From a virus: a DNA stretch of 21,681 nucleotides. Shown here one piece after another: positions 4,206-19,043 of this stretch. The notes below the pieces were generated by a model. The model ran no database searches. It was given only the letters and a program-made list of their open reading frames with translations, and had not been told where the DNA came from. Location of the stretch: the IMG/VR virus record IMGVR_UViG_3300020051_000106, positions 1 through 21,681 of that record. The stretch is one strand, 5' to 3'. How positions within the stretch are numbered: position 1 is the first letter of the stretch; each line of letters opens with the position of its first letter. The translations under genes and the position numbers were made by a program.

Positions 4206-5477
4206 ATGGCTATAACAGCAGGAGAAACATTAAGTTTAAACAATTTAGGTTCAGCAACAGGAGTTGCAGCAGGACCACGTTCATTATCAGCAGCAAAGGG
4301 TAATACTACTGGACCAATCGCGATGTCATCATTTGGTATCGATTCCGTTGGTACATTAAATGGATATACTTATGCAGTAGAAGATACTCAAGAAACTTAC
4401 AGACTGAGTTTTATAGGAAGTGGTTCAAATTTTACTTCAAGAATTGCATCAAGAGGTGAAAACTTTACTTGGTCTGTTGCATCTGGTACTACTATTAGTT
4501 TAACCTCTAATAATGGTGAAACTGCAGTATTTACGGTATCAAACAGACCAAATACAACAGGTACATTACAGCCAGTTTCTTTAAATACTCTTAGAGTTAA
4601 ATTTGCTGATGGGTTTAATGACCATGCAACAAATTATAACACCAATAGAGATAAACCAGTTTATTCGGTAGATTCTTATGATGGTAACTCAACTGCATTA
4701 TGTTTAACTGCCGATACTCCCGTAACTCTTGCTGATGGGTCTACTCTTGAGATTGGTGATTTAGAAGAAGGAATGAAATTAAAGGGTTATTCTATTGATG
4801 GTCTACTACCTTCAAGTGAAATGAACTTTTTAGATTGGAATTCGGATTCTCTTAATGTATCTGAAAAAGAAGTAACAATTCAGAATATAGTTTTTTCATT
4901 TTCAGAAAAAATATATAATATAAATGATGGTACCTTAAAATGTACTGCAGAACACCCATTCTTAGTTAAAACTTTAAATGGTGAGTATAAATTTATTGTA
5001 GCTCATTTGTTGAGAGAAGGTGATTCATTAATTAAATCAACCGAGGATGGTGTAATTGAAGAAATCATAACTTCTATTGATATTGAGATGGAAGCTTCAG
5101 AAATTGTAACTATTGATGTTGAAGATGTTGATACATATTTGGCAAATGGATATATTACTCACAACAAAGGTGGAGATACTCATACTGATTTAGCAGCACC
5201 AGGTGCACCAACAACATTAGCATATTCTCACCCATCTTTATCATGGAGTGGTGGTTCATCAAGTGGTACAACTGGTATAACTGCATATGATGTACAAATC
5301 GATAACAATTCAGATTTCTCATCACCTCTTATTAATGAAACTAATTGGAATGATTCATCAATACAATTGGCAGGTGGTGTTGTTGCTGCAGGAACTTATT
5401 ACGCTAGAGTTAGAAATATTGACCACGGATTAAAATCTACATGGAAAGTATCAACTGCATTTAGTGTAGTAGTTTAA
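4206..5477 (+). CDS. Fibre-like structural protein with intein-like Hint (BIL) domain and FnIII-like end
   Basis: The 423-residue protein has three parts. Residues 1-165 are a beta-rich N part (MAITAGETLSLNNLGSATG). Residues 166-320 form a complete mini-Hint domain: Cys166 opens block A (CLTADTPVTLADGS), block B is TAEH with Thr247 and His250, and the domain ends in VDTYLANGYITHN with His319-Asn320. No homing endonuclease is inserted, and at 155 residues it has minimal-intein size. Residues 328-423 resemble a fibronectin type III domain (APGAPTTLAYSHPSLSWSG, then GTYYARVRNIDHGLKS). The residue after Asn320 is Lys, not Cys, Ser or Thr, so normal intein splicing is not expected. This fits A-type bacterial intein-like domains, which cleave or splice by other routes. 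Its role on the virion is unknown. Confidence 0.85.
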   Translation: MAITAGETLSLNNLGSATGVAAGPRSLSAAKGNTTGPIAMSSFGIDSVGTLNGYTYAVEDTQETYRLSFIGSGSNFTSRIASRGENFTWSVASGTTISLTSNNGETAVFTVSNRPNTTGTLQPVSLNTLRVKFADGFNDHATNYNTNRDKPVYSVDSYDGNSTALCLTADTPVTLADGSTLEIGDLEEGMKLKGYSIDGLLPSSEMNFLDWNSDSLNVSEKEVTIQNIVFSFSEKIYNINDGTLKCTAEHPFLVKTLNGEYKFIVAHLLREGDSLIKSTEDGVIEEIITSIDIEMEASEIVTIDVEDVDTYLANGYITHNKGGDTHTDLAAPGAPTTLAYSHPSLSWSGGSSSGTTGITAYDVQIDNNSDFSSPLINETNWNDSSIQLAGGVVAAGTYYARVRNIDHGLKSTWKVSTAFSVVV

Positions 5478-8269: not shown

Positions 8270-8761
8270 ATGGCAGAAGTATTAGAATTTAACGATATGT
8301 TCTACACCAATTTCGAACCAAAGATGAAGAATCGTTTCATCATGGCAATCGATGGTATTCAATCATATCTTATCAAGGCAGCTAACAGACCTTCAATTCA
8401 ATTTGAAAAGGTTACACTTGACCACATTAATGTTAAAAGACAGTTAAAAGGTAAAGGTGAATGGCAAGATATCGAAATTACATTATTTGACCCAATCGTA
8501 CCGAGTGGAGCACAACAAGTAATGGAATGGGTAAGATTATCTCATGAATCAATCACAGGTCGTGATGGATATGCAGATTTCTACAAAAAGGATGTTGATA
8601 TCTTTATGTTAGGACCAGTTGGTGATAAAATTGAAAATTGGAAACTTAAAGGAGCATTCATCCAATCCGCAAACTTCGGTTCGTTGGAATGGGCAAGTGC
8701 AACTGATGTTGCTGAAATTACTCTAACATTATCGTATGATTACGCAATTTTAGAATACTAA
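8270..8761 (+). CDS. Tail tube protein (T4 gp19-like)
   Basis: This 163-residue protein, the length of T4 gp19, should polymerise into the inner tail tube. NRFIMAIDGIQSYLIKAANRP near residues 22-42 and VKRQLKGKGEWQDIEITLFD near 55-74 match the typical tube pattern. The end SLEWASATDVAEITLTLSYDYA is the standard closing beta-strand motif of these proteins. It lies directly after the sheath gene and is followed by a strong terminator, so sheath and tube can form a separate high-expression unit. Confidence 0.95.
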   Translation: MAEVLEFNDMFYTNFEPKMKNRFIMAIDGIQSYLIKAANRPSIQFEKVTLDHINVKRQLKGKGEWQDIEITLFDPIVPSGAQQVMEWVRLSHESITGRDGYADFYKKDVDIFMLGPVGDKIENWKLKGAFIQSANFGSLEWASATDVAEITLTLSYDYAILEY

Positions 8762-8872: not shown

Positions 8873-9640
8873 ATGGCAAATTTTGAATTTCCAACGGAAG
8901 TAATTGAACTTCCATCACAAGGAAAGGTTTATCCCGAAGGACACCCATTATCAAAGGGTACTGTGGAGATTAAGTATATGACCGCTAAGGAAGAAGATAT
9001 ACTTGCTTCACAAAATTTGATAAGAAGGGGGGTGGTACTTGATAAGTTATTCGAATCGGTGGTTGTAGAACCTGGTTTAGATATTGGTGATATATTCATT
9101 GGTGATAAAAACGCAATCTTATTAGCAACTCGTGTATTGGGATATGGTAAGGATTATCAAGTAGAAGTAAATGACCCATTCACACTTGAACCTCAGAAGG
9201 TAATAATTGATTTATCGGCTATTCAGATTAAAGAAATTGACTTTTCTAAATTAAATTCTAATAATCTATATGAGTTTGAACTACCTATATCTAAAAAGAT
9301 AGTAAAAGTAAAGTTGTTAACTCATAAAGATGAATTGGCTATAAATGCTGATATTCAAGCAATGAATCGTTTATCCAAAGGTAATGATTCTGTTTCTCAA
9401 GATGTATCAACTCGTTTACGTTATATGATTCAAGAGGTAGATGGTAACACAGAACGTGGATTTATTAACAAATGGGTTCAGAATAACCTATTAGCACGAG
9501 ATAGTAGAGCGATTAGAAACTTCGTGAAAGAAATTTCACCTGATTTGGATTTAAAATATGAATTCACATCAGATATAACTGGTGAGACGGAGGCACTTGA
9601 TATCCCATTTGGGATAGGGTTTTTTTACCCTTCCGAGTGA
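8873..9640 (+). CDS. T4 gp26/gp51-family baseplate or tail-assembly protein, short form
   Basis: The zero-frame product has 255 residues, the size of the T4 gp26 (208) and gp51 (249) family. Family features are the N-terminal IELPSQGKVYPEGHPL, the motif EIKYMTAKEEDILAS near residues 33-47, and the end DIPFGIGFFYPSE. In T4 these proteins act in baseplate hub assembly. Here the gene lies between the tube and tape-measure genes, where many phages keep tail-assembly chaperones. The ORF ends 12 bases after a run of seven T (9620-9626), and an open +1 frame with no start of its own continues to 9848. The gene therefore probably makes two products, short and frameshifted. No clear Shine-Dalgarno precedes the ATG. 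Confidence 0.85.
   Translation: MANFEFPTEVIELPSQGKVYPEGHPLSKGTVEIKYMTAKEEDILASQNLIRRGVVLDKLFESVVVEPGLDIGDIFIGDKNAILLATRVLGYGKDYQVEVNDPFTLEPQKVIIDLSAIQIKEIDFSKLNSNNLYEFELPISKKIVKVKLLTHKDELAINADIQAMNRLSKGNDSVSQDVSTRLRYMIQEVDGNTERGFINKWVQNNLLARDSRAIRNFVKEISPDLDLKYEFTSDITGETEALDIPFGIGFFYPSE
9617..9627 (+). promoter_or_regulatory. Candidate frameshift site GGG-TTT-TTT-TA
   Basis: In the zero frame the codons are GGG TTT TTT TAC CCT TCC GAG TGA. A Phe-tRNA on the second TTT can re-pair perfectly one base ahead (+1) or two bases back (-2) in the seven-T run. Both enter the open frame ending at 9848. RNA polymerase slippage on the same run would do likewise. Confidence 0.6.
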
Positions 9641-9848
9641 TTATAGTATTAAACTTCATTCTCAGATTTGGGAAATGGTTAACTATGGAAATGGTTTCAA
9701 TTGGACAGAAGTTTATACGATGCCAATCCATTGGAGAAAGTTTTATTTTAAAAAACTTTTAGATGCCAAGAAAAAGGAGAAGGAAGAATACGATAAAAGT
9801 AGTAAGAGTTCTAAATCAAAAGGACCTGGAGTAAGAGTGAGGAAGTAA
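9618..9848 (+). CDS. +1-frame extension of the gp26/51-like gene (likely reached by frameshift)
   Basis: This frame is open only after a TAG at 9615-9617, so it overlaps the upstream ORF for just 23 bases, which contain the seven-T run. Read from ACC at 9627 it adds 73 residues: TLPSDYSIKLHSQIWEMVNY, then NWTEVYTMPIHWRKFYFKKL, then a Lys/Ser-rich tail. It looks like a genuine protein: hydrophobic/aromatic pattern, helical segments and a basic end. No ATG with a ribosome site opens it; the first in-frame ATG (WEM) falls inside the conserved-looking part. A +1 or -2 slip on the T run would give a fusion of about 324 or 325 residues. A base error in the homopolymer would give the same picture and must be excluded. 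Confidence 0.75.
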   Translation, partial: GFFTLPSDYSIKLHSQIWEMVNYGNGFNWTEVYTMPIHWRKFYFKKLLDAKKKEKEEYDKSSKSSKSKGPGVRVRK

Positions 9849-9911: not shown

Positions 9912-10130
9912 ATGTCAAACGAAAAATTAAATGAAGGGTTATTTGGAGCTGCTAAGAAGTTCTCCGATGCATTTTTTGATGGATTGAAATCAAATGTAAC
10001 AAACACTGCATTAAATACTGCCAAAAAACGAGGATTCCCACCAAAACTTCAAAAACAATTGGATAAGGTGGATAAAGAATCTAAAGAATTGTTAAGACAA
10101 CTTGCTGATTATCAGGCAAAGAACAAATAA
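9912..10130 (+). CDS. Small basic helical protein before the tape measure
   Basis: The 72-residue protein is not recognised. It is Lys-rich and mostly helical: an N part NEGLFGAAKKFSDAFFDGLK with amphipathic character, and a C part KLQKQLDKVDKESKELLRQL with coiled-coil spacing. AAGGA lies about eleven bases before the ATG. It ends 12 bases before the tape-measure gene, whose Shine-Dalgarno follows its stop, so the two are co-transcribed. A partner or chaperone role toward the tape measure is only a guess from position. Confidence 0.65.
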   Translation: MSNEKLNEGLFGAAKKFSDAFFDGLKSNVTNTALNTAKKRGFPPKLQKQLDKVDKESKELLRQLADYQAKNK

Positions 10131-10142
10131 TAGGAGTCTAAA

Positions 10143-12821
10143 ATGGCAGATAGTAGATTAGAACAATTAAAAAAATTATCAGACCAGCAACAAAGGTACC
10201 AAAAATTACTTGAGATGCAGGAAAAATCTGGTAAGGATTATTCTGCCTCATTAGAAAAGCAATCAAAAAAGATAAAAGAACTTGCAAATACCTTAAAAAG
10301 TATTAATAGTTCTAATTCAAAATTTTTAGGTGAACAAGAAGTTGGTATAAGTTCTATCGGTTCTTCAATGCAGAGTTTAAAAGATGCTCAAAATAGTGTT
10401 TTAAGTACAACTTCATCATTGGGTACTTTAAATGAAGCACAAAGAGAAAGTATCTCATCCATTCTTTCCGATACAAGAGATTTGGCTTCATTGAACGCAG
10501 AAGATACAAATCAGATATTAGAAAAAAACGAATCACTTGAACAACAATTACAAGTTGCAAGTTCGTTATTTGGTGTAAATAGTCAAATAGTTGAAGAATT
10601 ACGTGCACAAGTACAAACTGGAAATCAGTTAGCTAAGTTAACCGAAGATGAACAGAGACAGTTAGAAAAACAACTTGCAGCATATAAAGGAATAAAAGAT
10701 GCAATTGGTGGTGTATTGAATACTGCTTCAGCACTTCTTAAAACCACAGGAGGTATCGTAGGTGGTTTAGTTATTGGAATGGGATATGTTACCGAAGCCC
10801 TTGGTAAAACTACTCGTGAAATGGGTGGTTTTTTAGGAGGACTTACTGGTGCAACATCACAAGTAACTTTATTAGGTACAATTTTCCCACAAGCACTTGA
10901 TTCAGCAAAAGGATTATCGAGTGAATTTGGTGGATTAAACGATTTATCTTTTCAAACCCAACTTAACACTAATCTCATGGCAACGAACATGGGTATTAGT
11001 GGACAAGAAGCCGCTGCCCTAACTGGTAACTTCGCTAGGTTGAATGGAGGTTCTATTCAAACGGCTCAAAACCTTGCAGCATCTACCAAAGAATTAGCAA
11101 AAGCAAACGGATTAATGCCATCTCAAGTAATGGCTGATGTAGCTGGTTCTGCACAGGCATTTGCTGAATATGGAAAACAAGGTGGTAAGAATATAGGTGA
11201 GGCCGCAGTTGCAGCTGGAAAACTTGGGGTGAATATGAGTACTCTTACTGGAGTAACTGATAACCTTTTGGATTTCGAATCATCTATAACAAAAGAATTG
11301 GAATTGGGTGCAATGTTAGGTAAGAATATCAACCTTAACAAAGCAAGACAATTAGCATATGAAGGACAAATTGGGGCATCTGTAAAAGAAGCTCTTAATC
11401 AAATGGGTGGTATTGAAGCTTTCAATAAAATGGATATTTTCCAAAAAAGACAAGCTGCAGCTGCATTAGGATTATCAACAGACCAACTTCAAAAGATGGC
11501 CAGTAACATGGATAAGTTGAATGATGATGGTACTATGCAACTATCTACATTTGATTCTATGACAGAATCTCTTACAACATTTGCAACTGGACCATTAGGT
11601 TCTACACTTAAAGGATTGGGTTCAGGTATAATAGCAGTTGGTCAAATGAACATGGGATTAAAATCATTTGGAACTTCTATATGGGGTATGGTTAAAGGAT
11701 TGGGTATGGGATTAAAAAAATTAGTTATGTACCCTATTCATTTAGCAAAAGCTGCTGCTATTAAAGTTGGTGGTATGATGGGAATTGGTGGTAGCGCTGT
11801 TGGTGGTGTTGGTAAAGTGGCAAGTAAGGCAACAGAAGTAGTTGGTGCTGGTGCTAACGCAGTTAAAGGTGCTGGTGTTGGGGTAAAGCTAACTTCTCTT
11901 GCTACTGGATTATCTGCTATGGGAACACCACAAGTTTTATTTGGTGCTGCTAACTTAATCCCAACTGGATTGGGATTCCTTACGGTATTACCTGGGTTAC
12001 CTGGTATGCTTGGAGTAGGAGCTCTTGGTACAAAGGCTGGTACTGGTTTAATGAATTTGGCAATAGGTTTAGGATTCATGGGTAATGGTACAATTACAGC
12101 TGGTGCTGGTAATTTAGCTCTTGCTGGATTAGCATTTACTTTAATGACTGCTGGTATAATAGGTATGGGTGCTATTGCACTACTTGGTCCTGCCATTGGA
12201 GTTGGATTAGGTGCAATTGCTGGAGGATTGGTTTCATTGGGTAATCCTGCTGTTGCTTTATTTGCTGCAATTGGTGTGGCTATTTTAGGTGGATTATCAC
12301 TTGCGCTTATGGGAGTTGGATACGCATTAGGATTAGCCGCTCCATTTATAGAAGCAATAGGGTCCGTTATCACAAGTGTATTCCAAGGTATTGCAACTGT
12401 AATACCTGTAGCTACCGCGAGTATAATTTCACTAATGGATAGTATTACTTTGGAGAAAGTAGGTGCTATTGCATTATTATCTCTGGCATTTATGGGACTG
12501 GCTTATTCATTGATGTTCTTAGGTTCTGCTGGGTTATTTGCTCTACCTACTTTGTTAGGTATTGCTGCCGCATCTGCTGGTATTGCACTTGTAGCAGAAT
12601 TATTTGGATTGGGTGGAAATGGTGAAAGTAGTGGAGAAGAAGCTGGTGGGTTAGAAGAAGGTTCATTATCAGAATACCAATCCCAAATGTTGGAAAATAT
12701 GAAACTATTGATAGCAGCAACTACAGCACCAAAAGAATTTATAATGGATGGACAAAAATTTGGTAGTTATATCACTAAACAACAAAAGAGAGATACTACT
12801 AATACTATCGTAAAGAAATAA
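10143..12821 (+). CDS. Tail tape measure protein (T4 gp29 counterpart)
   Basis: This 892-residue protein should fill the tail tube and set tail length. Residues 1-190 are Gln/Lys/Glu/Ser-rich coiled coil. A Gly-rich hydrophobic segment follows at about 190-240 (GGIVGGLVIGMGYVTEALGK). Residues about 240-480 are Ala-rich helical repeats. Residues about 600-830 form a long Gly/Ala/Leu-rich series of hydrophobic helices, as expected for segments that insert into the host membrane. The end EFIMDGQKFGSYI resembles the end of many T4-like tape measures. At the usual 0.15 nm per residue, 892 residues would span about 134 nm, longer than the 590-residue T4 gp29 implies. I see no cysteine. AGGAG precedes the ATG. 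Confidence 0.85.
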   Translation: MADSRLEQLKKLSDQQQRYQKLLEMQEKSGKDYSASLEKQSKKIKELANTLKSINSSNSKFLGEQEVGISSIGSSMQSLKDAQNSVLSTTSSLGTLNEAQRESISSILSDTRDLASLNAEDTNQILEKNESLEQQLQVASSLFGVNSQIVEELRAQVQTGNQLAKLTEDEQRQLEKQLAAYKGIKDAIGGVLNTASALLKTTGGIVGGLVIGMGYVTEALGKTTREMGGFLGGLTGATSQVTLLGTIFPQALDSAKGLSSEFGGLNDLSFQTQLNTNLMATNMGISGQEAAALTGNFARLNGGSIQTAQNLAASTKELAKANGLMPSQVMADVAGSAQAFAEYGKQGGKNIGEAAVAAGKLGVNMSTLTGVTDNLLDFESSITKELELGAMLGKNINLNKARQLAYEGQIGASVKEALNQMGGIEAFNKMDIFQKRQAAAALGLSTDQLQKMASNMDKLNDDGTMQLSTFDSMTESLTTFATGPLGSTLKGLGSGIIAVGQMNMGLKSFGTSIWGMVKGLGMGLKKLVMYPIHLAKAAAIKVGGMMGIGGSAVGGVGKVASKATEVVGAGANAVKGAGVGVKLTSLATGLSAMGTPQVLFGAANLIPTGLGFLTVLPGLPGMLGVGALGTKAGTGLMNLAIGLGFMGNGTITAGAGNLALAGLAFTLMTAGIIGMGAIALLGPAIGVGLGAIAGGLVSLGNPAVALFAAIGVAILGGLSLALMGVGYALGLAAPFIEAIGSVITSVFQGIATVIPVATASIISLMDSITLEKVGAIALLSLAFMGLAYSLMFLGSAGLFALPTLLGIAAASAGIALVAELFGLGGNGESSGEEAGGLEEGSLSEYQSQMLENMKLLIAATTAPKEFIMDGQKFGSYITKQQKRDTTNTIVKK

Positions 12822-18263: not shown

Positions 18264-19043
18264 ATGGCATTTAAACATCTCACCAATGAAGAAATCCAAC
18301 AAATGACCTTTGATTGGAGGTATAGGGGATTTACTACACTAGAATTGCTCACAGAAGAAGAATGTGATGAAATTAACGAAGAACTTGAAAGACTTCGTCA
18401 AGAAAGACAACTAACTACCAAAGAAGATGGTGAAGAATGGGGAGAATGGGACCCGTTTGCATACCCCCACAAATTATCAGATAAATTGGCAGCACTATTT
18501 TCACATCCAAAGTTAATAGAGGCTTCTGAATTTTTAATGGAAGGTGAGATTGTTGGTATGCAATCTTGGGCATATTTTAAACCACCTGGCCAATTGGGTA
18601 GGGACCAACATCAAAATGCATTCTATACTGGATGTGGCCATAACGAAATTATCAACACTGCCATTGCATTAGATAATCATGATGAACTAAATGGTGCGGT
18701 TTGGAATTATGAAGGTTCTCATAGATTACCAATACTTCCAATTGAAGTCGATGAAGAGCGTACTAAAACAAATCCTAAGTTTTGGAGAAACGAACGAGGT
18801 AAACCTTGTATAATGCCAGAAGGTCATGATTTTAAAAAGATTGAAGGAACTATGCAAAAGGGACATGTAGTATTACTTCACTCACATTGTGTACATGGTT
18901 CAGAAGAAAACAAATCAGATAGATTCAGACGAAACTTTTTAGGTGGATATCTTAAAAAAGGAGCTCCCTTTAATCAAGGAACTCATATGAAGCGAGAACC
19001 CATTGATATGTACGAACTTCGTAGTAAACATTGGGGAGAATAA
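18264..19043 (+). CDS. Phytanoyl-CoA dioxygenase (PhyH)-like Fe(II)/2-oxoglutarate oxygenase
   Basis: This 259-residue protein has the layout of the PhyH family of Fe(II)/2-oxoglutarate enzymes. Visible parts are the N-terminal GFTTLELLTEEECDEINEEL, a metal-site segment GRDQHQNAFYTGC (about 112-124), the core IALDNHDELNGAVWNYEGSH (about 134-153), and the C-terminal metal and 2-oxoglutarate segment HCVHGSEENKSDRFRRNF with His211 and Arg222. The first metal motif is His116-Gln-Asn118, where the family normally has His-x-Asp; an Asn at the carboxylate position could reduce or change activity. Such genes occur in marine T4-like phages as auxiliary genes of unknown substrate. It stands alone between a late-type promoter motif and a terminator. 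Confidence 0.8.
   Translation: MAFKHLTNEEIQQMTFDWRYRGFTTLELLTEEECDEINEELERLRQERQLTTKEDGEEWGEWDPFAYPHKLSDKLAALFSHPKLIEASEFLMEGEIVGMQSWAYFKPPGQLGRDQHQNAFYTGCGHNEIINTAIALDNHDELNGAVWNYEGSHRLPILPIEVDEERTKTNPKFWRNERGKPCIMPEGHDFKKIEGTMQKGHVVLLHSHCVHGSEENKSDRFRRNFLGGYLKKGAPFNQGTHMKREPIDMYELRSKHWGE

Follow-up and report, generated by a model that had tools for sequence, protein, structure and literature searches.

Does the gene at the tail-chaperone position of IMG/VR virus record IMGVR_UViG_3300020051_000106 encode one protein or two, and if two, by which route? The question was raised by an earlier note on the 21,681-nt stretch of DNA analysed here (the window, from a 21.7-kb virus record), according to which a gp26/gp51-family gene ends in its zero frame close to seven T and is continued in the +1 frame by a protein-like stretch that has no start. 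Both parts of this description were confirmed in the sequence. The zero-frame ORF begins with ATG and ends in TTT TTT TAC CCT TCC GAG TGA; the +1 frame, closed by a TAG, is then open from 9618 to the TAA at 9846-9848, and the overlap of the two frames (9618-9640) contains the T7 run. No ATG, GTG or TTG precedes the conserved part in the +1 frame of the window, and initiation further 5' in that frame is excluded because the TAG closes it. The joined product would have 324 aa after a +1 shift and 325 aa after a -2 shift. There is one chaperone gene in the window, with its extension out of frame, a count whose scope is the window, as a second copy may lie elsewhere.

We consider it highly probable that this gene yields two products by +1 ribosomal frameshifting, with stimulators 5' of the shift site and with roles like those of the G and GT proteins. 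The frameshift is most probably real, conserved and programmed, and most probably both +1 and ribosomal, as judged from comparative sequence analysis. The features under discussion are collected in Table 1.

Table 1. Features of the chaperone region, in coordinates of the window
Feature	Position	Strand	Remarks
Tail tube gene (T4 gp19-like)	8270..8761	+	Pfam Phage_T4_gp19, E 2e-9; immediately upstream of chaperone gene
Intrinsic-terminator-like stem-loop	8785..8815	+	between tube and chaperone genes; 13 pairs, then T run
Short form of gp26/gp51-type tail assembly chaperone (TAC-N), putative	8873..9640	+	255-aa zero-frame ORF; PF12322, PHROG_150; model pLDDT 89
Shine-Dalgarno-like GGAGG, candidate frameshift stimulator	9589..9593	+	26 nt 5' of T run
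Hairpin TATCCC-ATTT-GGGATA, candidate +1 stimulator	9601..9616	+	3 nt 5' of T run, between GGAGG and run
TAG closing +1 frame	9615..9617	+	just 5' of shift site
+1-frame extension (TAC-C), putative	9618..9848	+	~73 aa past shift; conserved in relatives; dN/dS ~0.3
Slip site TTT TTT T(AC), putative	9620..9626	+	conserved site; P-site tRNA-Phe would go +1, UUU to UUU
Intrinsic-terminator-like stem-loop	9833..9862	+	overlaps extension's end
72-aa ORF	9912..10130		between chaperone and probable tape measure gene
Probable tail tape measure gene	10143..12821	+	892 aa; position/synteny

The putative chaperone gene, its protein and its neighbours

The zero-frame protein matches PF12322, the family of T4 gp26 and gp51 (E 1.2e-6; 28.8 bits against a curated cut-off of 24.5), and PHROG_150 (E 2.2e-11). 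Its AlphaFold model (pLDDT 89) retrieves the SP-15 hub subunit (E 6.9e-18) and T4-like hub assembly proteins (E 2e-14 to 2e-10) from BFVD. Among PDB chains re-aligned with VIA-align, the best two are 3klu YqbN (Z 5.5), which we take to be an XkdN-like tail chaperone, and the HK97 tail assembly chaperone 2ob9 (Z 5.4), both weak at Z below 8; Foldseek gives 2ob9 an E of ~1 and a probability of 0.33. The fold match to solved tail chaperones is suggestive only, because Z is low and the Foldseek E is about 1. For a model of T4-type gp51, too, 2ob9 is among the hits (Z 3.7, rmsd 2.8 over 70 residues), and this model matches gp26 proteins as well. We infer a tail assembly chaperone function for the gene.

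Alignment places the end of T4 gp26, ...EFFELL, at the shift point; gp51 runs on in frame, and its helical C-terminus resembles the extension. Homology between extension and gp51 received no support when the fused family was compared with T4 gp51 profiles by hhalign, and T4 and its relatives, gp51 of T4 included, gave no match to an extension profile. Scored against PHROG_150, the fused proteins gained slightly for the window and not for its relatives, with no clear gain past the junction. Homology of the extension to the C-terminus of gp51 is suggested by position and a shared helical pattern, and was not proved by the sequence profiles.

The position of the chaperone gene between the tail tube and tape measure genes is kept in well over 100 loci, isolates included. 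Searches of Pfam and PHROG with the ORF at 10143-12821 returned no match; the syntenic gene is annotated as tape measure in Flavobacterium phage immuto and in SP-15. The small ORF in front of it showed no clear family in the same two databases, and Mel-JY01 and immuto likewise have a small ORF between the chaperone and tape measure positions. Strong terminator-like stem-loops lie on both sides of the chaperone gene, and the region holds three terminator-like sites where 0.5 are expected. Because these stem-loops flank it, there is a hint that the gene forms its own transcription unit. Elsewhere in the window, an ORF upstream of the sheath gene (4206-5477) carries a HINT/intein-like domain (PF07591, E 3.5e-7), and an ORF next to the tail genes (18264-19043) is Phytanoyl-CoA dioxygenase-like (PF05721, E 9e-20).

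Conservation of the frame offset and of the proposed slip site

A scan of IMG/VR with the zero-frame protein of the window returned 80 loci with 47-80% identity, and a second scan with the homologue of Flavobacterium phage immuto as query returned 80 further loci. The 168 loci in which the zero-frame stop lies inside the contig, the window and isolate genomes included, were compared. The extension is in the +1 frame in 163 of them; four others are cut by the contig end, and one (LR756511) opens in the -1 frame. The latter, from a 595-kb uncultured phage, has an apparently -1 extension, unlike its best-matching relatives. The +1 relation is found in the isolates Microcystis phage Mel-JY01, Flavobacterium phage immuto, Bacillus phage SP-15 and Listeria phage LIS04, and further in Streptococcus phage GXN1, Rhodothermus phage RM378 and Streptomyces phage BRock. 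Since related sequences are not independent, these and the following counts overstate significance. No chromosomal relatives were found in a scan of genome contigs with SP-15 as query, and Vibrio phage Va2 was dropped as a relative, its family match being too weak.

The junction, compared in related phages, thus has the relation that was described for the window. The earlier note had named as its main alternative a homopolymer sequencing error, with the true gene being one continuous frame or two ordinary genes, and a lone run of seven T in a metagenome contig is indeed a classic site of such errors. This explanation is ruled out because related loci share the frame offset: several isolate genomes have it unchanged, as do well over 100 contigs of independent origin, and some variants have no homopolymer at all. 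A plain in-frame fusion was looked for among the compared loci and none was seen. We give an error of this kind a negligible probability. The extension is, moreover, under purifying selection, as its dN/dS indicates.

The slip site was analysed in 144 non-identical loci. Taken alone, T7 is uninformative, since the AT-rich window contains 20 such runs where 28 are expected; position and conservation carry the signal. The shift site is TTTTTTT or a re-pairing variant in all 144 related genes, and T7 recurs elsewhere in these genes only 2 times in 144. The sites comprise TTT TTT TGG, TTT TTT TAC, TTT CTT TGG and TTT CTA TGG, and once each TTC TTT TAC and TTT CTT TAC. TTT TTT T(GG/AC) is nearly invariant, though TTC is synonymous: 143 of 144 loci use TTT for the first Phe codon, and all 109 with Phe at the second codon use it there as well. 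Phe codons elsewhere in the same genes number 1072 TTT to 367 TTC, and other Phe-Phe pairs are written TTC TTC 14 times and TTT TTT twice. At greater distance the site reads TTT TTT CAC (SP-15), TTT TTT AGT (LIS04), TTC TTT CGT (GXN1), TTT CTA TTC (LR756508) and CTG TTT CGC (BRock).

All of these variants keep at least one codon that permits +1 re-pairing in the P site, namely UUU to UUU, UUU to UUC or CUU to UUU. UUU_C is the +1 site of influenza PA-X (PMC3498833) and CUU_U that of bacterial RF2 (PMC5009743). The slipping codon may differ between lineages, because no single codon position suits all variants. A T directly 5' of the slip codons (TTTTTT or TTTCTT/TTTCTA) occurs in none of the 144 loci, against 73.3 expected from each gene's own codon usage. 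Its absence is what would be expected if -1 slippage is avoided, because a T at this place would make a -1 heptamer.

Candidate upstream signals and the probable mode of slippage

Two candidate stimulators precede the run. The GGAGG is invariant in 24 distinct close sequences. Compared with synonymous shuffling, Shine-Dalgarno-like matches of at least 5 nt are found in 26 of 26 close relatives (2.0 expected), in 29 of 34 members of the next group (4.6 expected), in 46 of 70 of the immuto group (21.5 expected) and in 3 of 14 of a fourth group (2.1 expected). The folding energy of the hairpin between GGAGG and the run is below that of synonymous shuffles (z about -1.6), an effect that in the groups tested is mostly local to this spot in the gene. 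Support for the hairpin is weaker in the immuto clade, and a control subset of 12 immuto-group sequences showed no low-energy hairpin effect against synonymous shuffles. One stem pair covaries, being C-G, A-U and U-A in different relatives, and 95% of the cells of the stem pair, as compared with 22-58% for slid versions. By these comparisons the GGAGG and the covarying hairpin are conserved beyond the need of the protein. To our knowledge, the 26-nt spacing from the GGAGG to the slip site exceeds that of known Shine-Dalgarno stimulators; looping out of the intervening hairpin would shorten this distance. An alternative fold of the window that places the T run in a GGGU...ACCC loop was rejected, as it is not conserved and needs a GGG before the run, present in only 25 of 144 loci.

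Work in a 70S system showed that +1 frameshifting is raised, and -1 frameshifting lowered, by a hairpin that refolds beside the E site, and an internal Shine-Dalgarno duplex has the same effect (PMC6321510). With the first UUU in the P site, the hairpin of the window ends exactly at the E-site codon. The proposed course of events is that most ribosomes would terminate at the TGA (9638-9640) and give the short form, while some would skip one base at T7 to give the 324-aa long form (TAC-NC). The P-site tRNA-Phe would re-pair from UUU to UUU, and either of the two codons may be the one that slips. The hairpin, refolding behind the ribosome by the E site, would favour forward over backward slippage, and the GGAGG further 5' would likewise do so. 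As with lambda gpG/gpGT, the tape measure protein would be coated by the short form, and the long form, the rarer of the two, would bring the tail tube protein to it.

The fourth group (loci L068, L069 and L072-L081) is mostly without GGAGG, and many of its members have a strong 3' hairpin instead. This begins a few nt past the zero-frame A-site codon and shows compensatory differences (GCCGCC...GGGCGGC and GCCGGC...GGCCGGC). It is possible that the stimulator was swapped in these loci, the 5' GGAGG for a 3' hairpin.

Other routes to a long product have to be weighed against +1 ribosomal frameshifting. The earlier note had left +1 and -2 side by side, and a peptidyl-tRNA that moves back two bases on the T run, as in phage Mu, would indeed find pairing partners on T7 and enter the identical downstream frame with a 325-aa product. 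The natural variants favour +1: TTC TTT TAC, TTT CTA TGG, TTC TTT CGT and CTG TTT CGC allow it and offer no good -2 re-pairing. Slippage backwards is, besides, opposed both by a hairpin to the rear of the ribosome and by the fact that T is avoided in front of the run, and -2 frameshifting is on these grounds very unlikely. Slippage might instead occur in transcription, the nascent hairpin at T7 causing RNA polymerase to drop one U so that some mRNAs carry a single frame. Hairpin and T7 together resemble a terminator, and stem-loop-mediated slippage is known to yield transcripts minus one base (PMC5009743). Such slippage requires a homopolymer, which is present in the window and missing in relatives that keep the offset: those with TTTCTTT, TTTCTAT or TTCTTTT, whose runs do not exceed 3-4 T, retain the frame relation. 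Selection against T before the run, furthermore, shortens it, the opposite of what polymerase slippage would lead one to expect, and we give this explanation a slim chance. Both -2 and polymerase slippage are poor general explanations, because several variants lack good -2 re-pairing and several lack a long homopolymer.

The extension might also be a separate protein with its own internal start, for which the conserved GGAGG could serve as ribosome-binding site, much as gene 26 of T4 yields a shorter product (26') by internal initiation. The TAG of the window closes the +1 frame between GGAGG and extension, and in 53 of 144 loci no ATG, GTG or TTG is found from the last +1 stop to the second codon past the shift, and 24 loci are closed within three codons; the separate start that the earlier note had raised as an objection is lacking in those 53. 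The conserved part of the +1 protein has its first residues at the shift site, and this conservation would be lost to a product started at the first internal Met. Two separate proteins are, on this evidence, hardly credible. What the comparison strongly supports, through frame relation, shift site and position, is the earlier note's proposal of a long fusion linked to the G/GT strategy; the fusion protein itself we infer.

Relation to known systems and the direction of the shift

The window shares with T4-like gp26/gp51 the family (PF12322, PHROG_150), the kind of gene position and, as proposed here, short and long forms; it differs in that the cited T4-like sites are -1 and T4 has two genes, whereas the window has one gene with +1. 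Lambda gpG/gpGT likewise form a short and long chaperone pair ahead of the tape measure gene by programmed frameshifting, but with -1 at a different heptamer. Canonical X_XXY_YYZ-type slippage by -1 (in Mu, -2) is not what the window presents, its extension being in the +1 frame and the variants disfavouring -2; on these grounds the gene is classed as a +1 variant of the G/GT-type chaperone and not as the canonical -1 type. RF2 (prfB) with CUU_U and influenza PA-X with UUU_C use the same kind of P-site re-pairing, and both sites occur among the natural variants here. RF2 relies on a Shine-Dalgarno sequence at short spacing and a stop codon, unlike the window, and we know of no upstream hairpin at the RF2 or PA-X site. 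In haloarchaeal myovirus HSTV-2 the tail chaperone very likely uses +1 as well, according to a 2016 review, which describes G-T frameshifting as conserved in long-tailed phages except T4 (PMC5009743); its likeness to the window lies in the direction of the shift and in the kind of gene. The Roseiflexus IS element also has a hairpin immediately 5' of its T5C5 run and a net loss of one base (PMC5009743), but this slippage requires a homopolymer, which many relatives of the window lack.

Vladimirov, Gautam and Davidson (2022, Virology 566:9-15) reportedly identified the T4-like tail assembly chaperones, with gp26 as TAC-N and gp51 as TAC-NC; their abstract is said to name genes 26 and 51 and to state that frameshifting is conserved in several T4-like groups. 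The claim that such a mechanism had not been described for this family is therefore not supported, and the central idea is not new, because the connection between gp26/gp51 and tail assembly chaperones is reported to have been made in that 2022 study. Of the papers that cite this study, one notes that a short and a long chaperone gene are both present in some T4-like phages (PMC10885494), and another that poly-T -1 frameshift signals are known in T4-like TAC-N genes (PMC12846349). A description of the +1 lineage or of its 5' signals was not found in the open-access literature, and this lineage with its 5' stimulators may be new.

A homologous gene with an extension from the same Phe-Phe position, but in the -1 frame, is present in the cyanophages S-RIM8 and S-BM1 and in the jumbo phages RaK2, 121Q, XaC1, Phosso, Vibrio 2.275, Atu_ph07, PA5oct and RAS14. 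Their site is mostly TTT TTC and is preceded by T, in contrast to the +1 lineage of the window, where T never precedes the run. A tree built from the N-terminal part accounts for the +1 rows by one change, with low branch support (60/0), and for all direction labels together by three, compared with 10.8 for shuffled labels; direction is thus clustered by lineage. A single switch of frameshift direction is possible. With moderate confidence we read these patterns as a T4-related lineage that would use +1 on UUU_Y with a two-part 5' signal (GGAGG and E-site hairpin, replaced by a 3' hairpin in one sub-clade), with sister lineages using -1 and T4 two genes, so that the direction would have switched and the architecture been kept.

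Two observations concern annotation of the -1 phages. In S-RIM8 and S-BM1 (L196, L197), the gp26 extension in the -1 frame is overlapped by a small downstream ORF with the annotation gp51 or hub assembly catalyst, so that a single frameshifted gene has probably been annotated as two. The -1 extension of RaK2 (L173, after 3278) matches PHROG_18291, of unknown function, at E 2e-29; by this match PHROG_18291 is a family made of a putative frameshift extension.

For annotation, the gp26-like genes of this lineage would have to be joined to the downstream stretch that is currently left blank or called hypothetical. In this lineage a bacterial +1 site with a hairpin 5' of it exists in many natural versions; otherwise we found such a layout tested only in designed constructs. 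Tail chaperones made by frameshifting would now include a +1 type from a broad, largely uncultured lineage of T4-related phages. The natural series of -1, +1 and two genes would offer a system for asking how the direction of frameshifting evolves.
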